Assembly (NCBI GenBank): GCA_003222395.1
Contig: QHWB01000035.1
Coordinates: forward strand, 124,001 to 188,000
Reading direction: 5' to 3'
From: Acidobacteriota bacterium
GTDB taxonomy: Bacteria; Acidobacteriota; Vicinamibacteria; Vicinamibacterales; CAVVIG01
DNA length: 64,000 nucleotides
Below are positions 2,931 through 63,103 of this stretch, one piece after another; position 1 is the stretch's first letter; the number at the start of each line of letters is the position of its first letter. The position numbers and the translations under genes were made by a program. The notes beneath the pieces were generated by a model. The model ran no database searches, had not been told where the DNA came from, and saw only the letters and a list, made by a program, of their open reading frames with translations.

Positions 2931-4993
2931 TGTGTGGGATCGCAGGTTTCGTTGGTTGTGATCGACTCGATCGCGAGGCGCCGCGGCGTGCGCTGCGCAT
3001 GCGCGACGTCATGCAGTACCGCGGACCGGATGAGGCCGGACTCCACTGCGACGATTTCGCGGCACTCGCGCATCGCCGGCTCAGCATCGTCGATTTGAGC
3101 ACCGGTCAGCAGCCGCTGTCGAACGAGGACGGCACCATCTGGGTGATCTACAACGGCGAGATCTACAACCACGGGGATGTCCGGCCCGAGCTCGAGTCGC
3201 ACGGTCACCGCTATCGCACCAAGTCGGACACTGAAATGATCGTCCACGCGTACGAGCAGTGGGGCGACGACTGCGTCCACCGATTCCGCGGGATGTTTGC
3301 GTTCGCAATCTGGGATGCCCCGAAGCGGCGCCTGCTGCTGTCGCGCGATCGCCTCGGGATCAAACCGCTGTACTGGTGCCGCGCCGGCAACACGCTGCTG
3401 TTCGGATCGGAGATCAAGGCGATTCTGGCGAGCGGGCTCGTGCCGGCCGATCCGAATTACGCCGTCCTGCCCGAAGTCCTCAGCACGCGCTACACGTCGG
3501 GCGAAGAAACGCTGTTCAAGGGGATTTACAAGCTGCTGCCGGGCCACCAGCTCGTGTTCGAGCTCGGCGAGATTCGCGTGCGACAGTACTGGGACGTGCC
3601 GGTTGGCGAGCGTTCGGAGCGCTCCCGCTCGGCTGAAAGCCTCGCGCCACACTCGGGAGGTCGCGCGAGCCTTTCAGGCGAGAGTGGCCGTGACGTCGTC
3701 GATCAATTCCGATCGCTGTTGACCGAATCGGTTCGTCTCCGCCTGATGAGCGACGTGCCGCTCGGCATGTTCCTCTCGGGCGGCATCGACAGCAGCGCCG
3801 TCGCCGCGCTGATGGCGGGGCTCATCGATCGGCCGCTGCAGACGTTCTCGATTGCGTTCAAGGAACGCGCGTTCAACGAGCTCGAGTACGCGCGCGAGGT
3901 CGCGCGAACGATTGGCGCCGAGTCGCACGAGGTCGTGATCGACGACGCCGATTTCTTTGGCGCGCTGCCGAAGCTGGTGTGGCATGAAGACGAGCCCATC
4001 GCGCATCCCTCCAGCGTGCCGCTCTACTACGTCTCCGCGCTGGCACGCCAGCACGTGACCGTCGTGCTGACGGGCGAAGGCAGTGACGAGCTCATGGCCG
4101 GCTACGGCAAATACCTGCGCCTGGCGTGGAACTGGCGCGCCGGAACTGTGTACGAACGCGCGGTGCCGCGCGGCGTGCGCAACCTGGTGGCCTCTCGCAT
4201 CGTCCCGCACGTGCCAGGACTGGTCGGACGGTACGCACGCCGTTCGTTTCTCGCCATGGACCGCACGCCGGAGGCGATGTTCCTCGACAACTTCGCGGCA
4301 ATCCGCCTGTCCGATCAGCAGCGGCTGCTCGCGCCCGCGTTCCGCGATGGCGCGACGAAGTCGAACGCGTACGGGCCGTCTCTCGATTACTTCGAGCGGC
4401 CAAACGGGTCGAGCACGCTGCTCGATCGCCTGCTCTACGCCGACATCAAGACCTACCTCGTCGAGCTGCTGATGAAGCAGGACCAGATGAGCATGGCGGC
4501 CTCGATCGAGAGCCGGGTCCCCTTCCTCGATCACGTGCTCGTCGAGTTCGTCGCTCGACTCCCCGACGAGTGGAAGCTCTCGGGCGTGACGACCAAGCGC
4601 ATCCTGCGCGAGGCAATGAAGGGGGTTCTGCCGGAATCGATCCTCAATCGCCCGAAGATGGGATTCCCGGTGCCGTTCGCATCGTGGACAAGAGACGCGT
4701 GGAACGGAATGGTACGAGAGGTGCTGCTGGACCGTCGCGCGCGCGAGCGCGGCATCATCGATGCGCCAGCCGTCGATCGCCTGCTGCGCGATCACGCAGA
4801 CGGACGCACCGACGGCGGCGATCGTCTGTGGAGCCTGTTGAACCTGGAGCTGTGGCACCGCACGTTCATCGATAACGAAGGAGTTCAGGCGTTGCCCGGT
4901 GTGGCAGCGTCGCCGCGACGCTCTGTTCTGGATGTACCCGAGCGCTACGGCACCACAGCTTCGAGCGCGGGGGTGGGGCCCCGCGCGGCGTAG
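2930..4993 (+). CDS. asnB: Asparagine synthetase-like amidotransferase (exopolysaccharide type) with two repeat-derived segments
   Basis: The protein has 687 residues. The start MCGIAGFVG exposes the catalytic Cys2 of class II glutaminases. The N-terminal domain (1-210) contains the GRGPD-type segment YRGPDEAG and YNGEIYNH. The synthetase domain has LSGGIDSS (about 280-288), TGEGSDELMAGY and KQDQMSMAASIESRVPFLD. It resembles the asparagine-synthetase-like proteins of exosortase/PEP-CTERM polysaccharide loci. About 20 residues from base 3624 are encoded by a REP-like palindrome inserted between the two domains. The last 25 residues (from base 4917) come from the junction repeat, so the protein is longer than usual. 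The next gene starts 6 nt after the stop. Confidence 0.92.
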   Translation: MCGIAGFVGCDRLDREAPRRALRMRDVMQYRGPDEAGLHCDDFAALAHRRLSIVDLSTGQQPLSNEDGTIWVIYNGEIYNHGDVRPELESHGHRYRTKSDTEMIVHAYEQWGDDCVHRFRGMFAFAIWDAPKRRLLLSRDRLGIKPLYWCRAGNTLLFGSEIKAILASGLVPADPNYAVLPEVLSTRYTSGEETLFKGIYKLLPGHQLVFELGEIRVRQYWDVPVGERSERSRSAESLAPHSGGRASLSGESGRDVVDQFRSLLTESVRLRLMSDVPLGMFLSGGIDSSAVAALMAGLIDRPLQTFSIAFKERAFNELEYAREVARTIGAESHEVVIDDADFFGALPKLVWHEDEPIAHPSSVPLYYVSALARQHVTVVLTGEGSDELMAGYGKYLRLAWNWRAGTVYERAVPRGVRNLVASRIVPHVPGLVGRYARRSFLAMDRTPEAMFLDNFAAIRLSDQQRLLAPAFRDGATKSNAYGPSLDYFERPNGSSTLLDRLLYADIKTYLVELLMKQDQMSMAASIESRVPFLDHVLVEFVARLPDEWKLSGVTTKRILREAMKGVLPESILNRPKMGFPVPFASWTRDAWNGMVREVLLDRRARERGIIDAPAVDRLLRDHADGRTDGGDRLWSLLNLELWHRTFIDNEGVQALPGVAASPRRSVLDVPERYGTTASSAGVGPRAA
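3624..3682. repeat. REP-like palindromic repeat inside asnB
   Basis: The segment contains GCTCGGCTGAAAGCCTCGCG followed by GCGCGAGCCTTTCAGGCGAG, two facing hairpin units of the same family seen at 8333, 16187, 19905, 54543 and 60768. Its insertion keeps the reading frame and adds about 20 residues rich in S, R and E between the glutaminase and synthetase domains of AsnB. Confidence 0.75.
4917..4991 (+). repeat. Junction repeat (family A) forming the C-terminus of AsnB and the asnB/GT boundary
   Basis: It begins CGACGCTCTGTTCTGGATG and ends in the GC hairpin GCGGGGGTGGGGCCCCGCGC just before the next start codon. It is translated in frame as RRSVLDVPERYG and so supplies the AsnB C-terminus. 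The orientation is the same as transcription, as in nearly all other copies. Confidence 0.75.
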
Positions 4994-13180: not shown

Positions 13181-13316
13181 GTTCTTATGCTCGCGGGGAA
13201 CTTTCTCATTCGCGTGGGGCCCCACCCCCACGCGGGCTCAGGGCTGCCCCCGCTTGCTCTCACTCGCGCATGCGCGCTCGCTCGGGCCGCAGGCGCTTTC
13301 TGCTGTTCTTAAGATA
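13181..13316 (-). repeat. Junction repeat (family A) upstream of the SET gene
   Basis: Read on the minus strand, it ends with the hairpin GCGTGGGGGTGGGGCCCCACGC, then an A-rich stretch GCATAAGAAC immediately before the ATG of the SET gene. The same orientation relative to transcription is seen at pstC, DUF190 and imuB. Confidence 0.75.
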
Positions 13317-13330
13317 CAATGCCGCGCACT

Positions 13331-16186: not shown

Positions 16187-16240
16187 TCTCCGCGCTCGGC
16201 TGAAAGCCTCGCGCACCCGCTCGCCTGAAAGGCTCGCGCT
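16187..16240. repeat. REP-like hairpin pair
   Basis: CGCTCGGCTGAAAGCCTCGCGC and CGCTCGCCTGAAAGGCTCGCGCTAC are two hairpin units of the GTAG-headed family, reading GTAGCGCGAG on the opposite strand. They separate the GMC gene from the 25-bp array. Confidence 0.8.
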
Positions 16241-16365
16241 ACAGCGACCGTTGTAGCGCGAGGCGACAGCGACCGTTGTAGCGCGGGGCGACAGCGACCG
16301 TTGTAGCGCGAGGCGACAGCGACCGTTGTCGCGCGAGGCGACTGCGACCGTTGTAGCGCGAGGCT
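16241..16365. repeat. 25-bp tandem repeat array, five units
   Basis: Five head-to-tail copies of ACAGCGACCGTTGTAGCGCG plus AGGCG, with one to three mismatches each, start at 16241, 16266, 16291, 16316 and 16341. The array is flanked by REP half-hairpins and appears to be an amplified piece of one. It is not a CRISPR, since there are no spacers. Confidence 0.9.
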
Positions 16366-28217: not shown

Positions 28218-28293
28218 ATTATTTGCGGCGGGGTCCCACCCCCGCCGCTGTTGCTCGGCGCATATGCGCCTCGCAGCGGCTCAAGGCTGCCCC
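28218..28293 (-). repeat. Junction repeat (family A, second subtype)
   Basis: Contains the hairpin GCGGCGGGGTCCCACCCCCG and the second stem-loop made of GCTCGGCGCATATGCGCCTCGC, followed by AGCGGCTCAAGGCTG. The same subtype recurs at 28519, 34040 and 41460. Confidence 0.7.
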
Positions 28294-28518
28294 CGAACGA
28301 TTCCGACGCTCCTCGCCGTCCATCCGGACGAAGGCACGCCGCGAGCAGACTTTTGTCGGCACCGGACGGAATCGCCCGCATTCGCCGACAGATCGCTCCC
28401 GCCGCTCCTCATCAGACACGTCGAGATACCCGGCCGACGACCGCAAACGCACACCGCCGGGCCGGGTCGAAAACATTTCCGAAAAACCGCAAACGTTTTC
28501 AGTTCCCGCGGAGCCCGG

Positions 28519-28645
28519 CATTCTTTACTCGCGCGGGGCCCCACTTCTATCGCGGCGGGGAGCCGACGCCCGTCGCGGTTGCTCGACGCATGCGCGCCTC
28601 GCAACGGCTCAAGGCTGACGCGCGCGTATCTAGAAGAGAACGGAT
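28519..28645 (-). repeat. Junction repeat (family A), mixed subtype
   Basis: Contains CGCGCGGGGCCCCACTT at one end, GCGCATGCGCGCCTCGCAACG in the middle and the boundary motif GTATCTAGAAGAGAACGG at the other end. It is the most complete copy in non-coding DNA. Confidence 0.7.
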
Positions 28646-30079: not shown

Positions 30080-33000
30080 TCAATAAAAATCGTGTGCGTC
30101 GAAGTCGACGTCGACGCCGCGCAAGCCGCGCACTTCCTCGGCACGCACCGACGTGACGCCGTCCTGGTTCTGCAGCACGCCGTCGACGATCAGAAACGGC
30201 TCTTCGACGATCGTGAGACGATCGCGCGCGAAGAGGTCCGGGCGGACGATGATGTTGGCGATGCCGGTTTCGTCCTCGAGGGTGAGGAAGACGAATCCCT
30301 TCGCGGTACCGGGACGCTGGCGCGTGATGACCATCCCGGCGACGCGCACGCGGCGTCCCTGCCGCTCGTGCCGCAGATCGATCGCGCGCAGGATGCCGCG
30401 CATCGACAGTTCCTCGCGGCGCAGCGCCATCGGATGGCGACCGATGCTCAGGCCCATGCCGGCGAAATCGGCGACGAGCCGTTCCGATTCGGTCATTGGC
30501 TTCAATGGACAGGTGTCAGTGTCATCATTTTTTAATTCGCGTGGGGCCCCACCCCCACGCGCTGACGCCCTCGCGGCATTTCTTAATGCTCGCGGGGCCC
30601 CACCCCCGCTCACCTCGCTCGCGCATTCGCACTCGCTCGAGCCGCGGGCGCTGCGCTCGGGCATATCTAGAACAGAACGTCGCAGCTCGTCCTCATGCCC
30701 ACGCGCTGACGCCCTCGCGGCATTTCTTAATGCTTGCGGGGCCCCACCCCCGCTCACCTCGCTCGCGCATTCGCACTCGCTCGAGCCGCGGGCGCTGCGC
30801 TCGGGCGTATCTAGAACAGAACGTCGCAGATCATGTTCCGTGTCTTCGGCTCCCGCCCATCCTGCCTCTCCCGCTGCCCATCCCGTGGCTGCTTCGTCAA
30901 ACATCTCACCGCTCGGGCGTACGGCGCGCTCCGCCTGCCACAGCGCGGATCGGCGGTCGTAGCCGAACGAATTGAGCGCGCCGATATCGGCGAGCGTCAC
31001 GACCTCGTCGCGGCGGAGAGCGGTGCGCGCGATGAGATCGTCGAGGGAGCGGAAGCGCTGCGAGACCGACCCGGCGCGCCATTCGTGCGAGCACGTGTTG
31101 CAGAACCAGCGATGCGCATCGACCTGCTCGAGCATGCTTGCATCGTCACATCCACATTTGGGACAGATCTGGGAGCTGGGGGCTGGGGGCCGGGGGCTGG
31201 GGATTCGAAGCTGGGAATTTAGACGTGCGCTCGCCCGCGCAATGGCTTTCCCGACTTCCTGTCGCAGGCCACTCACGTATCTCAGCCCAAGCCTGATGGC
31301 GCCGTCGGGTTCGACGCGGCAATCCCAGTCCGACAGCTGCACGTCGATTGGATGAAAGCGGACGCCGCGGCGCTGCGCGTCCTTGACGAGCGTGGCCGGG
31401 TGATAGAACCCCATCGGCTGATTGTTCAGGAGCGCGGTATAGAACGCCGCCGGGTAATGGACCTTGAGGTACGCGCTCGCGTATGCGAGCAGCGCGAAGC
31501 TCGCGGCGTGCGATTCGGGAAACCCGTAGAGCGCGAACGACGTGATCGATCGGATGATCTCCTCGGCCGCGTCGCCCGTAATCCCCTGGCGCGCCATCCC
31601 CTCGCGCAGCTGCACCTCCACCTGCTTCATCCGCCGCTCGGATCGCTTGAAGCCGAACGCGCGGCGCAGCTCCTCGGCCTGCCCGCCGGTGAAGCCGGCG
31701 GCGATCATCGCCATCCGCAGCAGCTGCTCCTGAAAGAGCGGCACGCCGAGCGTCCGCGCGAGGATCGGTTCGAGCGAAGGATGCGGATACTTCACCGGCT
31801 CGCGTCCCGCGCGGCGATTCAAGTACGGATGGACCATCTGTCCGACGATCGGTCCCGGACGGATGATCGCCACCTGCACGACGATGTCGTAGAAGCGGGC
31901 CGGTTTGAGGCGCGGCAGCGTCGCCATCTGCGCGCGCGATTCGACCTGGAAGACGCCGACCGTGTCGGCGTCGCAGAGCATCTTGTAGACCGCCGGATCT
32001 TCGGGAAGGTGCGCCAGATCGACTCGGGATTCGGGATTCGGGATTCGGGATTCGAGTCTGCAGGATTCGAGTCTGCAGGATTCGAGTCCGTGGGATTCGA
32101 GTCCGTGGGATTCGAATCCCGAATCCCGAATCCCGAATCCCGGTCCGTTCACGAGCGCGAGCGAGTCCTGGATGACGGCCATCATGCCGAGACCGAGGAG
32201 ATCCACTTTGACGATCCCCATGTCGGCGCAGTCGTCCTTGTCCCATTGCACGACGACGCGTCCGGGCATGCTCGCGTTTTCGAGCGGAACGACCGCGTCG
32301 AGCTGACCCTGGCAGATCACCATCCCGCCGGAGTGCTGGCCGAGATGCCGCGGCAGATCGAGCATCTGGTTCCAGATGCGCGCGAACGTGCGGACGCGAT
32401 CGGAATTGAGATCGAGGCCGACCGCGGCGAGCTGCCGCGGCAGCGTGTCGGCCGGGTCGGCGAACTCGAACTGATTCATGATCTTCGCGAGCCGATCGAC
32501 CTGCGCCGCGTCGAAGCCGAGCACCTTCCCCACTTCGCGCGCCGCGCTGCGGCCGCGATACGTGATCACGTTGGCGGTCATCGCCGCGCCGAGCCGCCCG
32601 TACTTCTCGTACACGTGCTGGATGACCTGCTCGCGCCGATCGCCGCTCGGCAGATCGAGATCGATGTCCGGCCACTCGCCGCGCTCTTCCGACAGGAACC
32701 GCTCGAACAGCAGATCCATGCCGACCGGATCGACCGCGGTAATCCCGAGGCTGTAGCAGACGGCGCTGTTGGCGGCGCTGCCGCGTCCCTGCACGAGGAT
32801 GTCGTGCCGGCGGCAGAAATTGACGACGTCCCAGACGATGAGGAAGTAGCCGGCGAGCTCGAGCTTCTCGATGAGATCGAGCTCGCGCGCGATCTGCGCG
32901 CGGGCGCGATCGTGATACGGGCGGTAGCGTTCGCGCGCGCCGACGTCGGTAATCTTCCGCAGGAACGACGCCTGCGTCTCGCCGGGCGGCACCGGATAAT

Positions 33001-33892: not shown

Positions 33893-35551
33893 TCAATCGA
33901 CAATGGCGTCAATGAACCAGGCGTCGGTGTCGCGATCCTGGAAGATGCGATAGACCGCGCCATCGCTGAGCGAGATGTCCCATTCGTCTCGATTAAATGC
34001 GCGGGGCACTCCATTTTTTACTTCGCGTGGGGCCCGACTTTTATTTATCGCGGCGGGGACCCCACCCCCGCCGCTGTTGCTCGGCGCATGCGCGCCTCGC
34101 AACGGCTCAAGGCTGTCACGCGCTGACGCCCTCGCATCATTTCTTAATGCTCGCGGGGCCCCACCCCCGCTCACCTCGCTCGCGCATTCGCACTCGCTCG
34201 AGCCGCGGACGCTGCGCTCGGGCGTCGTCCCTCCCACCTCTCCTGCCGAGCCCGCCCACCAGTCGCCCGACGTCCGCCACGGACCGGCGCAGTGGACGAC
34301 GACGCCGCCTGCGAAGCCGTGGCGATCGGTGGTGACGCGGATCGGCCGGCCATCGGCGATGGCGACGCGGGCGGGAACTGGTGGACGACAGCGGCGTAAG
34401 GCTGACATCAGCAGGGAGTGGGGGCTGGAGGCTGGGAGCTGGGATTGCAGACCAGCGCCCAGCCCCGAGTCTCCAGCCCCCGGACCCTGATCCGTCTTGA
34501 ACGCCGTCATGGCAAACGCGCCGGGACGGTAGGTGTCGACTGTCGCGGGAACGCCGATGCGGTCCTGTCCCATGACGGCGGCGAGCCGCGCGAGGAGCGT
34601 CGAGAGCTGCTCGGGCGTCGGGTGCGCGCGCGTGAAGAGCGTGTGCTGCAGCACGCGGCCGGGCGTCGGATCGATGACGATCGAGACGCGATCGATCCCC
34701 GCAGGGGGCGGATGCGATTCGAGATCGAGCAGCGCAAGCGTGCGCAGCGTGCGCACGTCGCGCATCGGCGACGGCAGCTCGAGACGCCGCGCGTAGAGCT
34801 CGGCTCCTGAGCCGCGCGTGACGAGGCGCAGCAGGATATGCAGCACCGCGGCGCCGCGATCGCGCCGCTCGAGCCGCGTCGAGAGCGGTTCGAGCAGCCG
34901 CGTGAGGACGAACGACAGCGGCTCGAGCTCCCCGATCGGCCAGTCGAGATCCATCGACGATTCGAAGCGCTCTTCGTCGAGCGTCGGGATCAGCGGCCGG
35001 ATGTCGTCGCCGCGCGCGAGCGCCTGCCAGACCAGCGCGTGGCGGCCCAGGCGTGAGGTGAGATCGGCCGGAGGAAGCGCGGCGAGCTCGCCGAGCGTCT
35101 TCAGTCCCCACGCCTTGAACGTGGTCAGAGCAGTACCAACGGGCTCGGACGTATCTAGAACAGAAGGTCGCCGACCGTTGCCAACCAGAACAGAATGTTG
35201 CAGATGACCGACACGTTCGAGAATCCCGATCGCAATCGGCGCGAGCGCGTCGGCTTCTTCGCCGCGCTTGATGATGGTGACGCCCGGGCGCGCGTGCGCG
35301 AGGATGAGCGCGGCGGCGCAGGTGCCGGCGATCGCGACGTGTACGCGTACGCCGCGATCGGCCGCTTCGCGCCGCAGCTCGTCGGCGATGGTGCTCGGCG
35401 GACCGAGCAGCCGATCGAGCCCGGCGACGTCAATCGCGACGACATCGTCGTCGTGCCGTTCATAGCGCGGCGAAAATTCGCGCGCGATCGCGTCGACCGC
35501 CACCGCGGCGTCAGCGTCAGGCGCAGATGGTCGATACAGACACGCGTACAT
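33893..35551 (-). CDS. imuB: ImuB, inactive Y-family polymerase-like mutasome protein, with repeat-encoded insertions
   Basis: The protein has 552 residues. It has the DinB-like fold without the metal-binding DxD/SxE residues: the usual palm motif reads VVAIDVAGLDRLLGPP, as expected for ImuB. GLKTLGELAALPPADLTSRLG is the helix-hairpin-helix region. The C-terminal ImuB domain is split: GPWRTSGDWWAG and then, 70 residues later, DEWDISLSDGAVYRIFQD. The insert is the translated junction repeat. A heptamer array adds about 20 residues near 355, and a third fragment encodes RRPSVLDTSE near 130. ImuB bridges DnaE2 and the beta clamp. The ATG abuts a junction repeat and overlaps the imuA frame by 35 nt. 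Confidence 0.88.
   Translation of the reverse strand: MYACLYRPSAPDADAAVAVDAIAREFSPRYERHDDDVVAIDVAGLDRLLGPPSTIADELRREAADRGVRVHVAIAGTCAAALILAHARPGVTIIKRGEEADALAPIAIGILERVGHLQHSVLVGNGRRPSVLDTSEPVGTALTTFKAWGLKTLGELAALPPADLTSRLGRHALVWQALARGDDIRPLIPTLDEERFESSMDLDWPIGELEPLSFVLTRLLEPLSTRLERRDRGAAVLHILLRLVTRGSGAELYARRLELPSPMRDVRTLRTLALLDLESHPPPAGIDRVSIVIDPTPGRVLQHTLFTRAHPTPEQLSTLLARLAAVMGQDRIGVPATVDTYRPGAFAMTAFKTDQGPGAGDSGLGAGLQSQLPASSPHSLLMSALRRCRPPVPARVAIADGRPIRVTTDRHGFAGGVVVHCAGPWRTSGDWWAGSAGEVGGTTPERSVRGSSECECASEVSGGGAPRALRNDARASARDSLEPLRGAHAPSNSGGGGVPAAINKSRAPREVKNGVPRAFNRDEWDISLSDGAVYRIFQDRDTDAWFIDAIVD
34013..34228 (-). repeat. Junction repeat (both subtypes fused) inside imuB
   Basis: Two hairpin modules in a row: CGGCGGGGACCCCACCCCCG with the GCTCGGCGCATGCGCGCC stem, then GCGGGGCCCCACCCCCGC with CTCGCTCGCGCATTCGCAC. 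All are translated in frame, adding about 70 residues to ImuB. Confidence 0.85.
34416..34490. repeat. Inverted GGGGCTG heptamer array inside imuB
   Basis: GGGGGCT, GGAGGCT, GGGAGCT, GGGATTG units are followed by AGCGCCC, AGCCCCG, AGTCTCC, AGCCCCC units on the opposite strand sense, making a foldable inverted array. It encodes a G/A/S/P-rich linker. Confidence 0.7.
35141..35172 (-). repeat. Fragment of junction repeat inside imuB
   Basis: GCTCGGACGTATCTAGAACAG is the 5' boundary of the junction repeat on the minus strand. It is in the same frame as in other proteins (RRPSVLDTSE). The hairpin part is missing. Confidence 0.6.
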
Positions 35552-36335
35552 TATTTAATTCGCGCGGGGCCCCACCCTCGCACGTATCAAGAACAGAGCG
35601 TCGCTGATCGTTGCTGCCGTCGTGCGCATCCAGGACAAAACGTCGCCAACGCGCGCTGACGATGCTCGCGTCGACGTCGAGGCCGTCGAATAGCCGAACG
35701 CCGAACCGTTGCCCTTTCCCTTCTGACCGTTGACCGACCTTCACCGTCAAACCAGCCGAGCTCCGCGCCATCGGCTCCGATCCAACCAACAGACAGATCG
35801 TCTGACTCCCTTCGACCATTCGCTGCAGCCGCAGCCACGTCGTGAACGGCAGCCGGCGGATCGCGTGCGACGGCGCTTCGGCGACGTCGAAGGCGACGAG
35901 CCCGAAGTTGCCCGCCTGCAGGACGAGCGTGAACGCGCGCAGCGCCTGCTCGAGCGCGCGCTGATTCATGTCGCGGCACATCCCGGGATTGCTGACGACG
36001 TGCCCGCGGATCCAGAGCAGTCGATCGAGATGGATCCCGGCCGCGGACGCCGACTCGACATCGAACATGTCGAGCGCGTCGACGAGCGCGACGAGCTCGC
36101 CGTGCGCCGTCGCGGCGGCGAGCATCCGATGCAGCAGGCTCGTCCGTCCCGACGAGCGCGGACCGACGAGCTCGGAGACCTGTCCGCGCGGAAACCCGCC
36201 TCCGAGATGAACGTCTAACGCCGTAATGCCGCACGCGGCGGCGTCGTATTCGACAGGCGGCAGTGTGGTGGTGAGCGTGCGATCGAGCTGCCGGGCGCGA
36301 AGGAGCGATTCGAGGTCGGCGCGTGCCAGAGCCAT
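35517..36335 (-). CDS. imuA: ImuA, RecA-like mutasome protein
   Basis: The protein has 272 residues. The RecA/SulA-like core has GITALDVHLGGGFPRGQVSELVG, a Walker A-like GPRSSGRTSLL (about 58-68) and a hydrophobic Walker B region (ELVALVDALDMFD). ImuA recruits ImuB and DnaE2 at damaged replication forks. The C-terminal about 25 residues (RRSVLDTCEGG and on) are encoded by the junction repeat, after which the imuB start codon appears in another frame. It is the first gene of the imuA-imuB-dnaE2 operon. An inverted repeat overlapping the -10 box upstream may be a damage-response operator. Confidence 0.85.
   Translation of the reverse strand: MALARADLESLLRARQLDRTLTTTLPPVEYDAAACGITALDVHLGGGFPRGQVSELVGPRSSGRTSLLHRMLAAATAHGELVALVDALDMFDVESASAAGIHLDRLLWIRGHVVSNPGMCRDMNQRALEQALRAFTLVLQAGNFGLVAFDVAEAPSHAIRRLPFTTWLRLQRMVEGSQTICLLVGSEPMARSSAGLTVKVGQRSEGKGQRFGVRLFDGLDVDASIVSARWRRFVLDAHDGSNDQRRSVLDTCEGGAPRELNNVRVSVSTICA
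35551..35604 (-). repeat. Junction repeat (family A, short) at the imuA/imuB boundary
   Basis: Read on the minus strand: CGACGCTCTGTTCTTGATACG, the hairpin GGGTGGGGCCCCGCGCG, then AATTAAATA directly followed by the imuB ATG. It forms the imuA C-terminus and the imuB 5' region at the same time. Confidence 0.8.
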
Positions 36336-41002: not shown

Positions 41003-41341
41003 CTACGTCCGCCCCGGCCGATACAAAAGCACTTCCGCGCGTTCGAGGGTGATGAGGCCGTCACCGACCATGTGTTCGAGATCCGGCATGAACGCCTCGA
41101 TCTTCTCCGGGGCGTCGACGATTTCGACCACGATCGGCAGGTCCTGCGACAGCTCGAGCAGCTTGGCCGTGTGAATGCGGCTGTGCGCGCCGAAGCCCAT
41201 GAAGCCCTTGATCACCGTCGCACCGGCCAGGCCGCGCCTGCGCGCTTCGAGGACGATGGCCTCGTACAACGGCTTGCCGTGCCAGTGATCGGCCTCGCCG
41301 ACGAAGATCCGCAGGAGCTTGCCCTCAGTTGGGATTGACAT
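41003..41341 (-). CDS. DUF190-domain protein
   Basis: The protein has 112 residues. LLRIFVGEADHWHGKPLYEAIVLEARRRGLAGATVIKG and HTAKLLELSQDLPIVVEIVDAPEKI are the core of the DUF190 (PII-like) fold, which is often encoded next to CrcB/FluC fluoride channels, as here. It may modulate the channel or bind a nucleotide. The ATG at 41341 was chosen because it comes directly after the AAAAAAA edge of the junction repeat; a longer start would translate the repeat. The crcB gene lies upstream on the same strand, 224 bp away. Confidence 0.83.
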   Translation of the reverse strand: MSIPTEGKLLRIFVGEADHWHGKPLYEAIVLEARRRGLAGATVIKGFMGFGAHSRIHTAKLLELSQDLPIVVEIVDAPEKIEAFMPDLEHMVGDGLITLERAEVLLYRPGRT

Positions 41342-41422
41342 TTTTTTATGGCGCGGGGGCCCCACCCCCCGCGCCTGATGCCCTCGCGCCGTAGCGCTCG
41401 GGCATATCTAGAACAGAACGTC
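41342..41422 (-). repeat. Junction repeat (family A) immediately upstream of DUF190
   Basis: Minus strand: the boundary CGTTCTGTTCTAGATATGCC, the hairpin GGGGGGTGGGGCCCCCGCGCC, then ATAAAAAAA directly before the ATG. Second of two tandem copies between crcB and DUF190. Confidence 0.85.
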
Positions 41423-41436
41423 GACGCGGGGACCGG

Positions 41437-41564
41437 CTTTTTTTAACGGCGCGGGACCCCCCCGCCGCTGTTGCTCGGCGCATACGCGCCTTGCAACGGC
41501 TCAAGGCTATCGCGCCTGACGCTTGGCCGCAGGCGGTGCGCTTGGGCATACTTAGAACAGAACG
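41437..41564 (-). repeat. Junction repeat (second subtype) immediately downstream of crcB
   Basis: Minus strand: it begins CGTTCTGTTCTAAGTATGCC exactly after the crcB stop TAA and continues through the GCAAGGCGCGTATGCGCCGAGC stem-loop to GCGGGGGGGTCCCGCGCCG and a run of A. Confidence 0.85.
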
Positions 41565-41930
41565 TTACCGCATCAGTGCAAAAGCGATCGCCAACCCGAT
41601 CAGGCCCGCAACGACTTGCCCGACCACGTTGATCGACGCCCACACGAACTGGCCGTCGCGGATCAACGAGACGCTTTCGAAGGCGTACGACGAAAAAGTG
41701 GTGAACCCCCCGAGGACGCCGACGAGCAGGAACAGACGGAGGTCCGGGGCGAGCTGGACGCGCTGTTCGGCGGCGCCGGCGATCATGCCGAACACGACGC
41801 AGCCGACGACGTTGACGACGAAGGTGCCGGCGGGAAAAAGGGAGCCGGTCGTTCGGAGCACCGCCATCGACAACAGGTAGCGGCTCACGGAGCCGAGCGC
41901 TCCGCCCGCCGCAATCAGCGCCAGCCGCAT
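41565..41930 (-). CDS. crcB: CrcB/FluC fluoride channel protein
   Basis: The protein has 121 residues with four membrane segments. GGALGSVSRYLLS in the first, GTFVVNVVGCVVFGMI with the pore Asn in the second, and GVLGGFTTFSSYAFES with the conserved TTFSSF-type motif in the third are diagnostic. A dimer forms the fluoride-specific export channel. The ATG at 41930 opens the first helix, and GATAAT lies nine bases upstream. The fluoride riboswitch fold was looked for upstream and not found. Two junction repeats follow, then the DUF190 gene. Confidence 0.92.
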   Translation of the reverse strand: MRLALIAAGGALGSVSRYLLSMAVLRTTGSLFPAGTFVVNVVGCVVFGMIAGAAEQRVQLAPDLRLFLLVGVLGGFTTFSSYAFESVSLIRDGQFVWASINVVGQVVAGLIGLAIAFALMR

Positions 41931-60767: not shown

Positions 60768-60885
60768 TGGAGAGAGGCTTTGGTGCGCTCGCCTGAAAGG
60801 CTCGCGCTACGCTGCATCCGGCTGAAGCCATCGCCGCTACAACGGTCGCTGTCGCGCGAGTCTTTCAGGCGAGCGGTGAGCCGGC
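60768..60885. repeat. REP-like hairpin cluster
   Basis: GCGCTCGCCTGAAAGGCTCGCGCTAC, then CATCCGGCTGAAGCCATCG, ACAACGGTCGCTGTCGCGCG and GTCTTTCAGGCGAGCGG. The middle ACGGTCGCTGT resembles the core unit of the 25-bp array at 16241. The REP cluster fills the gap between the TolC relic and the small secreted protein. Confidence 0.7.
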
Positions 60886-62073: not shown

Positions 62074-63020
62074 GCCGCCGCCCCGCCCGCCGGTGCCGCC
62101 GCCGCCTCCTGCAACGGCGCCAGGCTCCGCGTCATGCTCCAGATGAGGAGCCGCGACAGCGAATTGACCATCAACGTGATGACGAACAGGACGAGACCCG
62201 TCTCGACGAGCGCGGCCAGGTACAGCTGATCGGCCGCTTCCGTGAACTCGTTCGCGATGACCGCAGCCATCGTGTATTGCGGCGCGAACAGCGACGTCGA
62301 GATCCGCGGGTTGTTGCCGATGACCATCGTGACCGCCATCGTCTCGCCGAGCGCGCGCCCGAAGCCGAGCATGATGGCGCCGATGATGCCGGTGCGGGCG
62401 TAGTAGAGCGCGGCGCGGATCGCCTCGAACCGCGTCGCGCCGAGCGCGTAGGCGCCCTCACGCTGCGCGATCGGCACCGATCGGAGCACCTCGCGCGACA
62501 CCGACGAGGTGAATGGAATGACCATCACCGACAGAATCAGCGCGGCCGACAGCATGCCGAGGCCCAGCGGCGGACCCGTGAAGAGCGGCAGCTGCCGCAG
62601 CGAGTCTGGCATCGACGTCTCGATTGCCCGGACGGCTGGAACGAGGACGAAGATCCCCCATAACCCGTACACGATCGACGGAATGGCGGCGAGCAGCTCG
62701 GTCAGGAAGACGAGCGGCTGCCGCAGCACGGCGGGACAGAGCTCGGATATGAACACCGCGATGCCCAGTGCGATCGGCGTCGAGATGAGCAGCGCGAGGA
62801 CCGACGAGTAGAGCGTGCCCCAGATGAACGGGAGCGCGCCGAATTCGCCCGCGACCGGATCCCAGATCTCGGTGCGCCAGAAACTGAAGCCGAACTTCTG
62901 AATCGACGGCAGCGACTGGCGCGTCAGCTCGACGCCGATCGCGAACACGATCAGGACGACGACGAGCGCGACGGCGCCCGTGCCGATTCGGAAGGTCAAA
63001 TCACGCGATCGTTCGGTCAT
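62070..63020 (-). CDS. pstC: Phosphate ABC transporter permease PstC
   Basis: The protein has 316 residues with six membrane segments. FGFSFWRTEIWDPVAGEFGALPFIWGTLYSS and LLAAIPSIVYGLWGIFVLVP are PstC signatures. ALGATRFEAIRAALYYARTGIIGA is the EAA loop, and GRALGETMAVTMVIGNN follows it. The ATG at 63020 was chosen since it lies directly after the repeat's run of A; a start 8 codons earlier would translate repeat DNA. It partners PstA. The gap of 80 bp from pstS holds only a junction repeat, which also supplies the 5' region. Confidence 0.93.
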   Translation of the reverse strand: MTERSRDLTFRIGTGAVALVVVLIVFAIGVELTRQSLPSIQKFGFSFWRTEIWDPVAGEFGALPFIWGTLYSSVLALLISTPIALGIAVFISELCPAVLRQPLVFLTELLAAIPSIVYGLWGIFVLVPAVRAIETSMPDSLRQLPLFTGPPLGLGMLSAALILSVMVIPFTSSVSREVLRSVPIAQREGAYALGATRFEAIRAALYYARTGIIGAIMLGFGRALGETMAVTMVIGNNPRISTSLFAPQYTMAAVIANEFTEAADQLYLAALVETGLVLFVITLMVNSLSRLLIWSMTRSLAPLQEAAAAPAGGAAA

Positions 63021-63103
63021 TTTTTTGGTGCGCCGGGGGCCCACCCCGGCGCCAGACGCGCTCGCGGCGTAAACCGCTCGCGCGTATCAAGAACAGAACG
63101 TCA
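63021..63103 (-). repeat. Junction repeat (family A) between pstS and pstC
   Basis: Minus strand: it begins TGACGTTCTGTTCTTGATACG, whose first three bases are the pstS stop. It has the hairpin GGCGCCGGGGTGGGCCCCCGGCGC and then ACCAAAAAA before the pstC ATG. It fills the intercistronic space exactly. Confidence 0.85.

Follow-up and report, generated by a model that had tools for sequence, protein, structure and literature searches.

IS200/IS605-related mini-elements and REPINs are small non-autonomous elements made of hairpin DNA, which show a strand bias and have no obvious terminal inverted repeats. The classic precedent for palindromes that are also read in-frame as protein is the RPE of Rickettsia (Ogata et al. 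2000, 2002), summarised in PMC10969869 and PMC3733652. According to Di Nocera et al. 2013 (PMC3733652), REPs likewise lie in-frame within open reading frames, including many genes of DNA synthesis and repair with DnaE2 among those named, and the intragenic GTAG/CGTC REPs are single stem-loops of 20-40 bp with GTAG or CGTC at one end. In the literature searched we found nothing on the element described below or on in-frame palindromes in Acidobacteriota.

The locus considered here lies in the Vicinamibacteria-like genome of a soil acidobacterium, 7.74 Mb in 118 contigs, and the related loci come from acidobacterial MAGs of the Vicinamibacteria (gp6) kind. All coordinates refer to the window, i.e. 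the whole stretch of 64,000 nucleotides that was analysed.

Translated repeats inside an intact DnaE2

The dnaE2 gene of the window (Table 1) encodes a protein that reaches 1194 bits with the model NF004225 for error-prone polymerases (cut-off 939), possesses the PHP, alpha, finger, HHH and OB domains of Pfam, and has a predicted fold matching Pol III alpha structures. Comparison of the core gene with five relatives gave dS of 0.51-0.96 and dN of 0.09-0.14, and the low dN/dS ratios show purifying selection and hence a functional polymerase. There is no second DnaE2 in the genome, the nearest sequence being DnaE1 at 31% identity. A pseudogene with an intact copy elsewhere, which an earlier sequence-only reading had named as grounds for refuting its claims, is ruled out by this single-copy search together with the selection on the core.

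Two copies of a repeat unit, each of 142 nt and 96% identical, are arranged in tandem with a start-to-start period of 144 bp (48 codons). The element encodes residues 1020-1122 of DnaE2, i.e. 103 in-frame residues placed directly before CPLKPMTESERLVADFAGMGLSIGRHPMAL, and the ORF is open across the entire repeat region; the predicted translation includes, for example, GSSECECASEVSGGGAPR. The sequence-only reading had reported two nearly identical translated copies that add about 100 residues ahead of a conserved segment of a full-length polymerase with no disturbance of the frame, and all of this is borne out. Only its spacing of 13 bp between the copies shifts, to 2 bp by the 142-nt unit, as this figure depends on where the unit ends are set.

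Five codons distinguish the tandem copies from each other, and every one of these differences (5/5) changes the amino acid, so that the repeat peptide itself looks unconstrained and not conserved. In an AlphaFold run covering DnaE2 residues 560-1267 (37 sequences), most of the insert had a pLDDT of 31-41, compared with mostly 85-97 for the adjoining folded parts, and the insert is predicted to be a disordered linker. Two further translated repeats, a GGGATTC-type and a CTGGGGG-type array, occupy other linkers of the same protein; the GGGATTC heptamers are similar to the G-quadruplex-forming GGGAATC repeats described in Xanthomonas (PMC4692102). A zinc-ribbon-like motif, CPKCGCDDxSMLE...WFCNTCSHEW, was also observed at ~31070-31170 (DnaE2 residues ~905-935). 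It is found in most DnaE2 of the Vicinamibacteria type and is missing from the Terriglobia and Rokubacteria outgroups.

Table 1. Genes and repeat copies in the window, with positions given from its first nucleotide
Feature	Position	Strand	Remarks
dnaE2 (imuC), error-prone DNA polymerase, intact, 1267 aa	30080..33883	-	family model match; core dN/dS 0.12-0.20 vs five relatives
Repeat element, copy 1	30547..30688	+ (element strand, ATTTTCTTA...GAACGTC)	read in-frame on minus strand as LRRSVLDTPERSARGSSECECASEVSGGGAPQALRNAARASARG...
Repeat element, copy 2	30691..30832	+	96% identical to copy 1; same reading frame
Partial unit, 50 nt: 5' end and first hairpin CGCGTGGGG-CCCCAC-CCCCACGCG	30526..30575	+	
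dnaE2, second translated repeat (linker site 1, residues 582-620): tandem array of GGGATTC type, arms inverted	32025..32142	.	
dnaE2, third translated repeat (linker site 2): array of CTGGGGG type, ahead of the CPKCG zinc motif	31186..31230	.	linker variable in relatives
imuB, Y-family-like mutasome subunit, 552 aa	33893..35551	-	below-cut-off NCBIfam DNA polymerase IV matches; aligns with relatives' imuB-position genes
Element copies in-frame in imuB C-terminal linker (WWAGSAGEVGGT ... PRAFNRDEWDISLSDG)	34040..34225	+	
imuA homologue	35517..36335	-	degenerate element match 35550-35647 overlaps C-terminal end
Intergenic copies of DnaE2-type element	41341..41570	+	
Intergenic copy of DnaE2-type element	13202..13323	+	
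Two diverged intergenic copies, 28219-28296 and 28521-28642	28219..28642	+	
Short-form copy with both hairpins	63020..63103	+	
Diverged element copy	4914..4992	-	ORF there without family support

A dispersed family with two covarying hairpins

The element belongs to a large repeat family. Genome-wide counts are 104 for its core CGBGGGGCCCCACCCCCG at <=1 mismatch and 129 for its tail GCGTATCNAGAACAGAACGTC at <=2 mismatches, and the reversed controls gave 0 in both cases, which places the family far beyond chance. A profile HMM search of 0.9 Mb of the genome returned 192 matches in 153 clusters, and the element is thus a dispersed family with at least 150 clusters in this genome. The units range from about 85 to 150 bp and have a T-rich 5' end. 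The short form (~85 bp) is composed of ATTTTCTTATT, hairpin 1 (CGCGTGGGG-CCCCAC-CCCCACGCG), hairpin 2 (ACGCSCTCGSGC-CGTA-GCSCTCGSGCGT) and the tail ATCNAGAACAGAACGTCRC. In the long form, to which the DnaE2 copies belong, additional modules are present in the loop that separates the two arms of hairpin 2. Both stems covary: 34 short copies gave 41 double-change cells versus 11.9 in shuffles, with 0 of 500 shuffles as high, and the signal was lost when the partners were slid (at most 8 such cells).

The 5' end ATTTTCTTA and the 3' end GAACGTCRC are not complementary, so the family does not have the terminal inverted repeats of a MITE. At the site in a histone deacetylase (HDAC) gene, a few codons were replaced and no clear target-site duplication was seen. 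A known RNA family is rejected, as there is no Rfam match within the 64-kb window, and so is a plasmid or phage origin, neither collection containing a DNA match. The window also holds two pairs of 75-82% identical stretches at 213-392 and 3724-3903 (3511 bp apart), apparently paralogous tandem genes.

The open reading frames adjoining dnaE2 align with the imuA and imuB pair of relatives, and imuB itself harbours the element. In a repeat search of the window, its 142-nt copy at 34108-34249 matched the DnaE2 unit at 78%. Over their aligned parts the DnaE2 and ImuB copies are 97-98% alike, and other genomic copies of comparable length reach at most ~86-89%. This greater closeness to each other than to copies elsewhere points to local duplication or gene conversion, and the earlier suggestion that the DnaE2 copies are recent or homogenised is to that extent supported locally.

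No transposase linked to the element was found in the genome. The single RAYT-type gene has no element copy within 1.5 kb on either side, and RAYT as the mobiliser is not supported: the locus is flanked by a different palindrome of GTAG type, and among relatives the distribution of RAYT genes does not match that of the element. A second palindrome family (CGCTCGCCTGAAAGGCTCGCGCTAC / GTAGCGCGAG...), with a GTAG-like end, was observed in the window at 16213-16364 and 60835-60876 and at L242 795-926. It forms a tandem array in the window, adjoins the sole RAYT-type gene, and has the look of a classical GTAG REP accompanied by its own transposase.

Genic copies and recurrence at the same linkers

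Most clusters lie between genes (133/153), and 18/153 were called inside a gene. About 90% of the 0.9 Mb searched by the profile is coding according to a home-made codon model, so insertions within genes are strongly depleted. Copies between tandem genes are oriented against transcription in 73 cases and with it in 17 (p = 2e-9), a bias that may stem from insertion into a specific strand or from a function in RNA.

In-frame cases were accepted as clear at profile E < 1e-7 with a family match, and as weaker at profile E 1e-5 to 1e-3. The clear cases comprise five repair or helicase genes (DnaE2, ImuB, UvrC, Lhr helicase and MrfA-like helicase) and four others (a histone deacetylase family protein, a BaiN/HI0933-like oxidoreductase, a group-1 glycosyltransferase and a DUF72 protein), ImuB being included on its below-cut-off polymerase IV matches and its alignment to relatives. 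ATP synthase gamma, a PSD1/DUF1553 protein and an S15 peptidase are the three weaker ones. We left out calls inside ORFs that had no family support (L217, L173, L174, L163, L238, L155, L178 and window 4914-4992), as well as L222 and L169, where an ORF with a Pfam domain has the element at its end or one flank is non-coding-like. None of the clear genic copies interrupts its ORF, and the genes concerned are supported by Pfam or NCBIfam. Compared with solved structures or relatives, the extra segment amounts to 22 aa in HDAC, ~50 aa in the RNase H domain of UvrC and ~45 aa in the BaiN-like oxidoreductase. The HDAC site has gained a net 66 nt versus an element of ~80 nt, and this insertion was therefore not simply precise.

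Alignment with related DnaE2, proposed by the sequence-only reading as a check, shows that three linkers hold differing translated repeats in each genus. These linkers (after QDxLALVN, before CPKCG and before CPLKPM) are highly variable among 42 relatives, with median lengths of 28, 28 and 29 residues within the family and maxima of 89, 137 and 123; the corresponding medians in six outgroups are 3.5, 5 and 3. The repeats of relatives include arrays of the GGGATTC and CTGGGGG types. In G017, of a related genus, the DnaE2-type element resides in linkers 1 and 2 of DnaE2 but not in linker 3, and also in ImuB, ImuA, UvrA, UvrC and MetG. Such repeats are not peculiar to this gene, since DnaE2 linkers across the whole family and other repair genes likewise carry them, and the phenomenon is less unusual than it was taken to be: in-frame repeats, DnaE2 included, are already published for other bacteria (PMC3733652).

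A comparable pattern is seen in the UvrC loop after YRK(Y/F)RIRG. G000 and G017 have the element there, and their two copies could go back to one shared insertion; G002, G014, G010 and G011 have different palindromic or tandem repeats, and in G003 and G004 the loop is all but empty. In the same loop, the sequences L302, L304, L305 and L306 show repeats that are unrelated from genus to genus, among them the CTTCGACAGGCTCAGGACGAGC type and a long inverted repeat that is nearly perfect (GTCGGGAGCCTTTTGCAGTTTCTGC...). The element itself was detected in 6/162 genomes of the order, with 97, 95 and 24 tail copies (<=1 mismatch) in three genera, and is confined to one family as far as these 162 genomes reach. 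Two species of one genus, G017 and G047, have 95 and 0 tail copies respectively, a difference that suggests a recent burst or loss.

Origin of the insert and comparison with known systems

The DnaE2 insert is very probably a REP/RPE-like palindrome that permissive linkers tolerate, with selection retaining the copies that leave the frame open. A dispersed, non-coding palindrome would spread mainly between genes and at times into them, and frame-breaking insertions would be purged by selection. In DnaE2 it would have entered, in a stop-free frame, the long flexible linker that joins the C-terminal helical region to the OB-fold part; this linker 3 varies too much for an exact empty site to be defined. 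Duplication as the 144-bp unit may then have followed, giving about 100 disordered residues rich in Ser, Arg, Gly and Ala, which the polymerase presumably tolerates and which would have no function of their own.

Tolerance alone does not account for the concentration in repair genes, which make up, together with helicase genes, 5/9 of the clear targets here and to which G017 adds ImuA, ImuB, DnaE2, UvrA and UvrC; the excess (5/9 here plus ImuA, UvrA and UvrC in G017) is suggestive, being based on raw counts with DnaE2 as the starting point. Palindromes in mutasome and excision-repair genes might instead be selected because they tune expression, or act as a switch through hairpin-driven gain and loss of in-frame units, and thereby adjust the mutation rate. 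The several unrelated palindromic or tandem repeats in one UvrC loop across genera, the duplication unit of exactly 48 codons in DnaE2 and the preference for repair genes noted in other phyla too (PMC3733652) all speak in favour of this. However, the raw counts are small, the loops of repair proteins may just be more permissive, or these proteins less constrained, and the BaiN-like oxidoreductase, glycosyltransferase, DUF72 protein and HDAC are targets outside repair, so we regard such selection as unlikely, though it keeps a real if small chance. The same small chance applies to the broader idea that unrelated palindromes repeatedly enter the same mutasome and excision-repair loops since they are useful there, e.g. 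for reversible in-frame tuning of repair and mutation rate.

The position of the insert between conserved C-terminal parts, open for ~100 codons, could also be that of a functional added domain of DnaE2 such as a protein-interaction segment. This seems very doubtful, as the sequence at the site is unrelated from genus to genus and nearly absent in some, the segment is predicted to be disordered, and the tandem copies differ solely by amino-acid-changing substitutions. We consider an assembly or binning artefact just as improbable: the genome is fragmented into its 118 contigs and probably metagenome-derived, and tandem repeats can be misassembled, but comparable architectures are seen again in independently assembled genomes of other genera, frames are kept and the copies are spread over many contigs. 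The exact number of tandem units in DnaE2 is less certain. Removal of the insert at the protein or RNA level would be suggested by nothing further than an in-frame insertion in a polymerase gene, and there is hardly any likelihood of it: the units are shorter than 150 bp and widespread as intergenic DNA, and no intein, homing-endonuclease or intron matches were obtained in Pfam, NCBIfam or Rfam. An intein is rejected for lack of any such Pfam/NCBIfam domain match in DnaE2, and splicing, which the sequence-only reading had set as another possible refutation, is not indicated for a segment predicted to be a disordered linker.

The REP/RPE-like reading places the locus among systems of a kind already known; new are the element family and the phylum. 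The independent hits of the same DnaE2, ImuB and UvrC linkers across genera support the earlier, unexplained remark on repair-gene preference, and the many natural replicates make it testable whether such repeats are tolerated or selected. Long stretches of translated repeat DNA within conserved enzymes are also something that gene callers and profile models must expect to encounter.

The order imuA, imuB, dnaE2 and the intact polymerase domains are those of the ImuA-ImuB-DnaE2 mutasome cassette, but the linkers here are widened by translated repeats and an extra zinc-ribbon-like CPKCG...FCNTC motif is present. IS200/IS605-related mini-elements and REPINs resemble the element as small non-autonomous hairpin DNA with a strand bias and no obvious terminal inverted repeats, and differ from it in that no matching transposase was found for it. 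As described in PMC3733652, GTAG/CGTC REPs share with it the in-frame copies in repair genes including DnaE2 and uvr, and the compensatory changes in their stems; both are dispersed and mostly extragenic. The CGTC type also lacks a dedicated transposase, and none was found for the present element. However, the element is not a single stem-loop of 20-40 bp with GTAG or CGTC at the stem end: its short form has ~85 bp and two hairpins, and its CGTC lies ~10 nt from the stem, within the tail. Unlike GTAG REPs, which flank a RAYT gene, it has no copy within 1.5 kb on either side of the genome's single one, and the sections of PMC3733652 consulted name no Acidobacteria as REP hosts. A parallel in way of working is the RPE, which comprises dispersed palindromes of ~150 bp that are intergenic as well as in-frame in many unrelated ORFs, where they are translated in an open frame. 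Here too, an in-frame palindrome occurs in several unrelated genuine genes, the nine clear and three weaker ones listed above. We do not claim sequence homology, and the present element belongs to another phylum and has two hairpins, an unpaired tail and nested modules. Protein-coding palindromic elements are now extended to Acidobacteriota, with an element that is structurally distinct.
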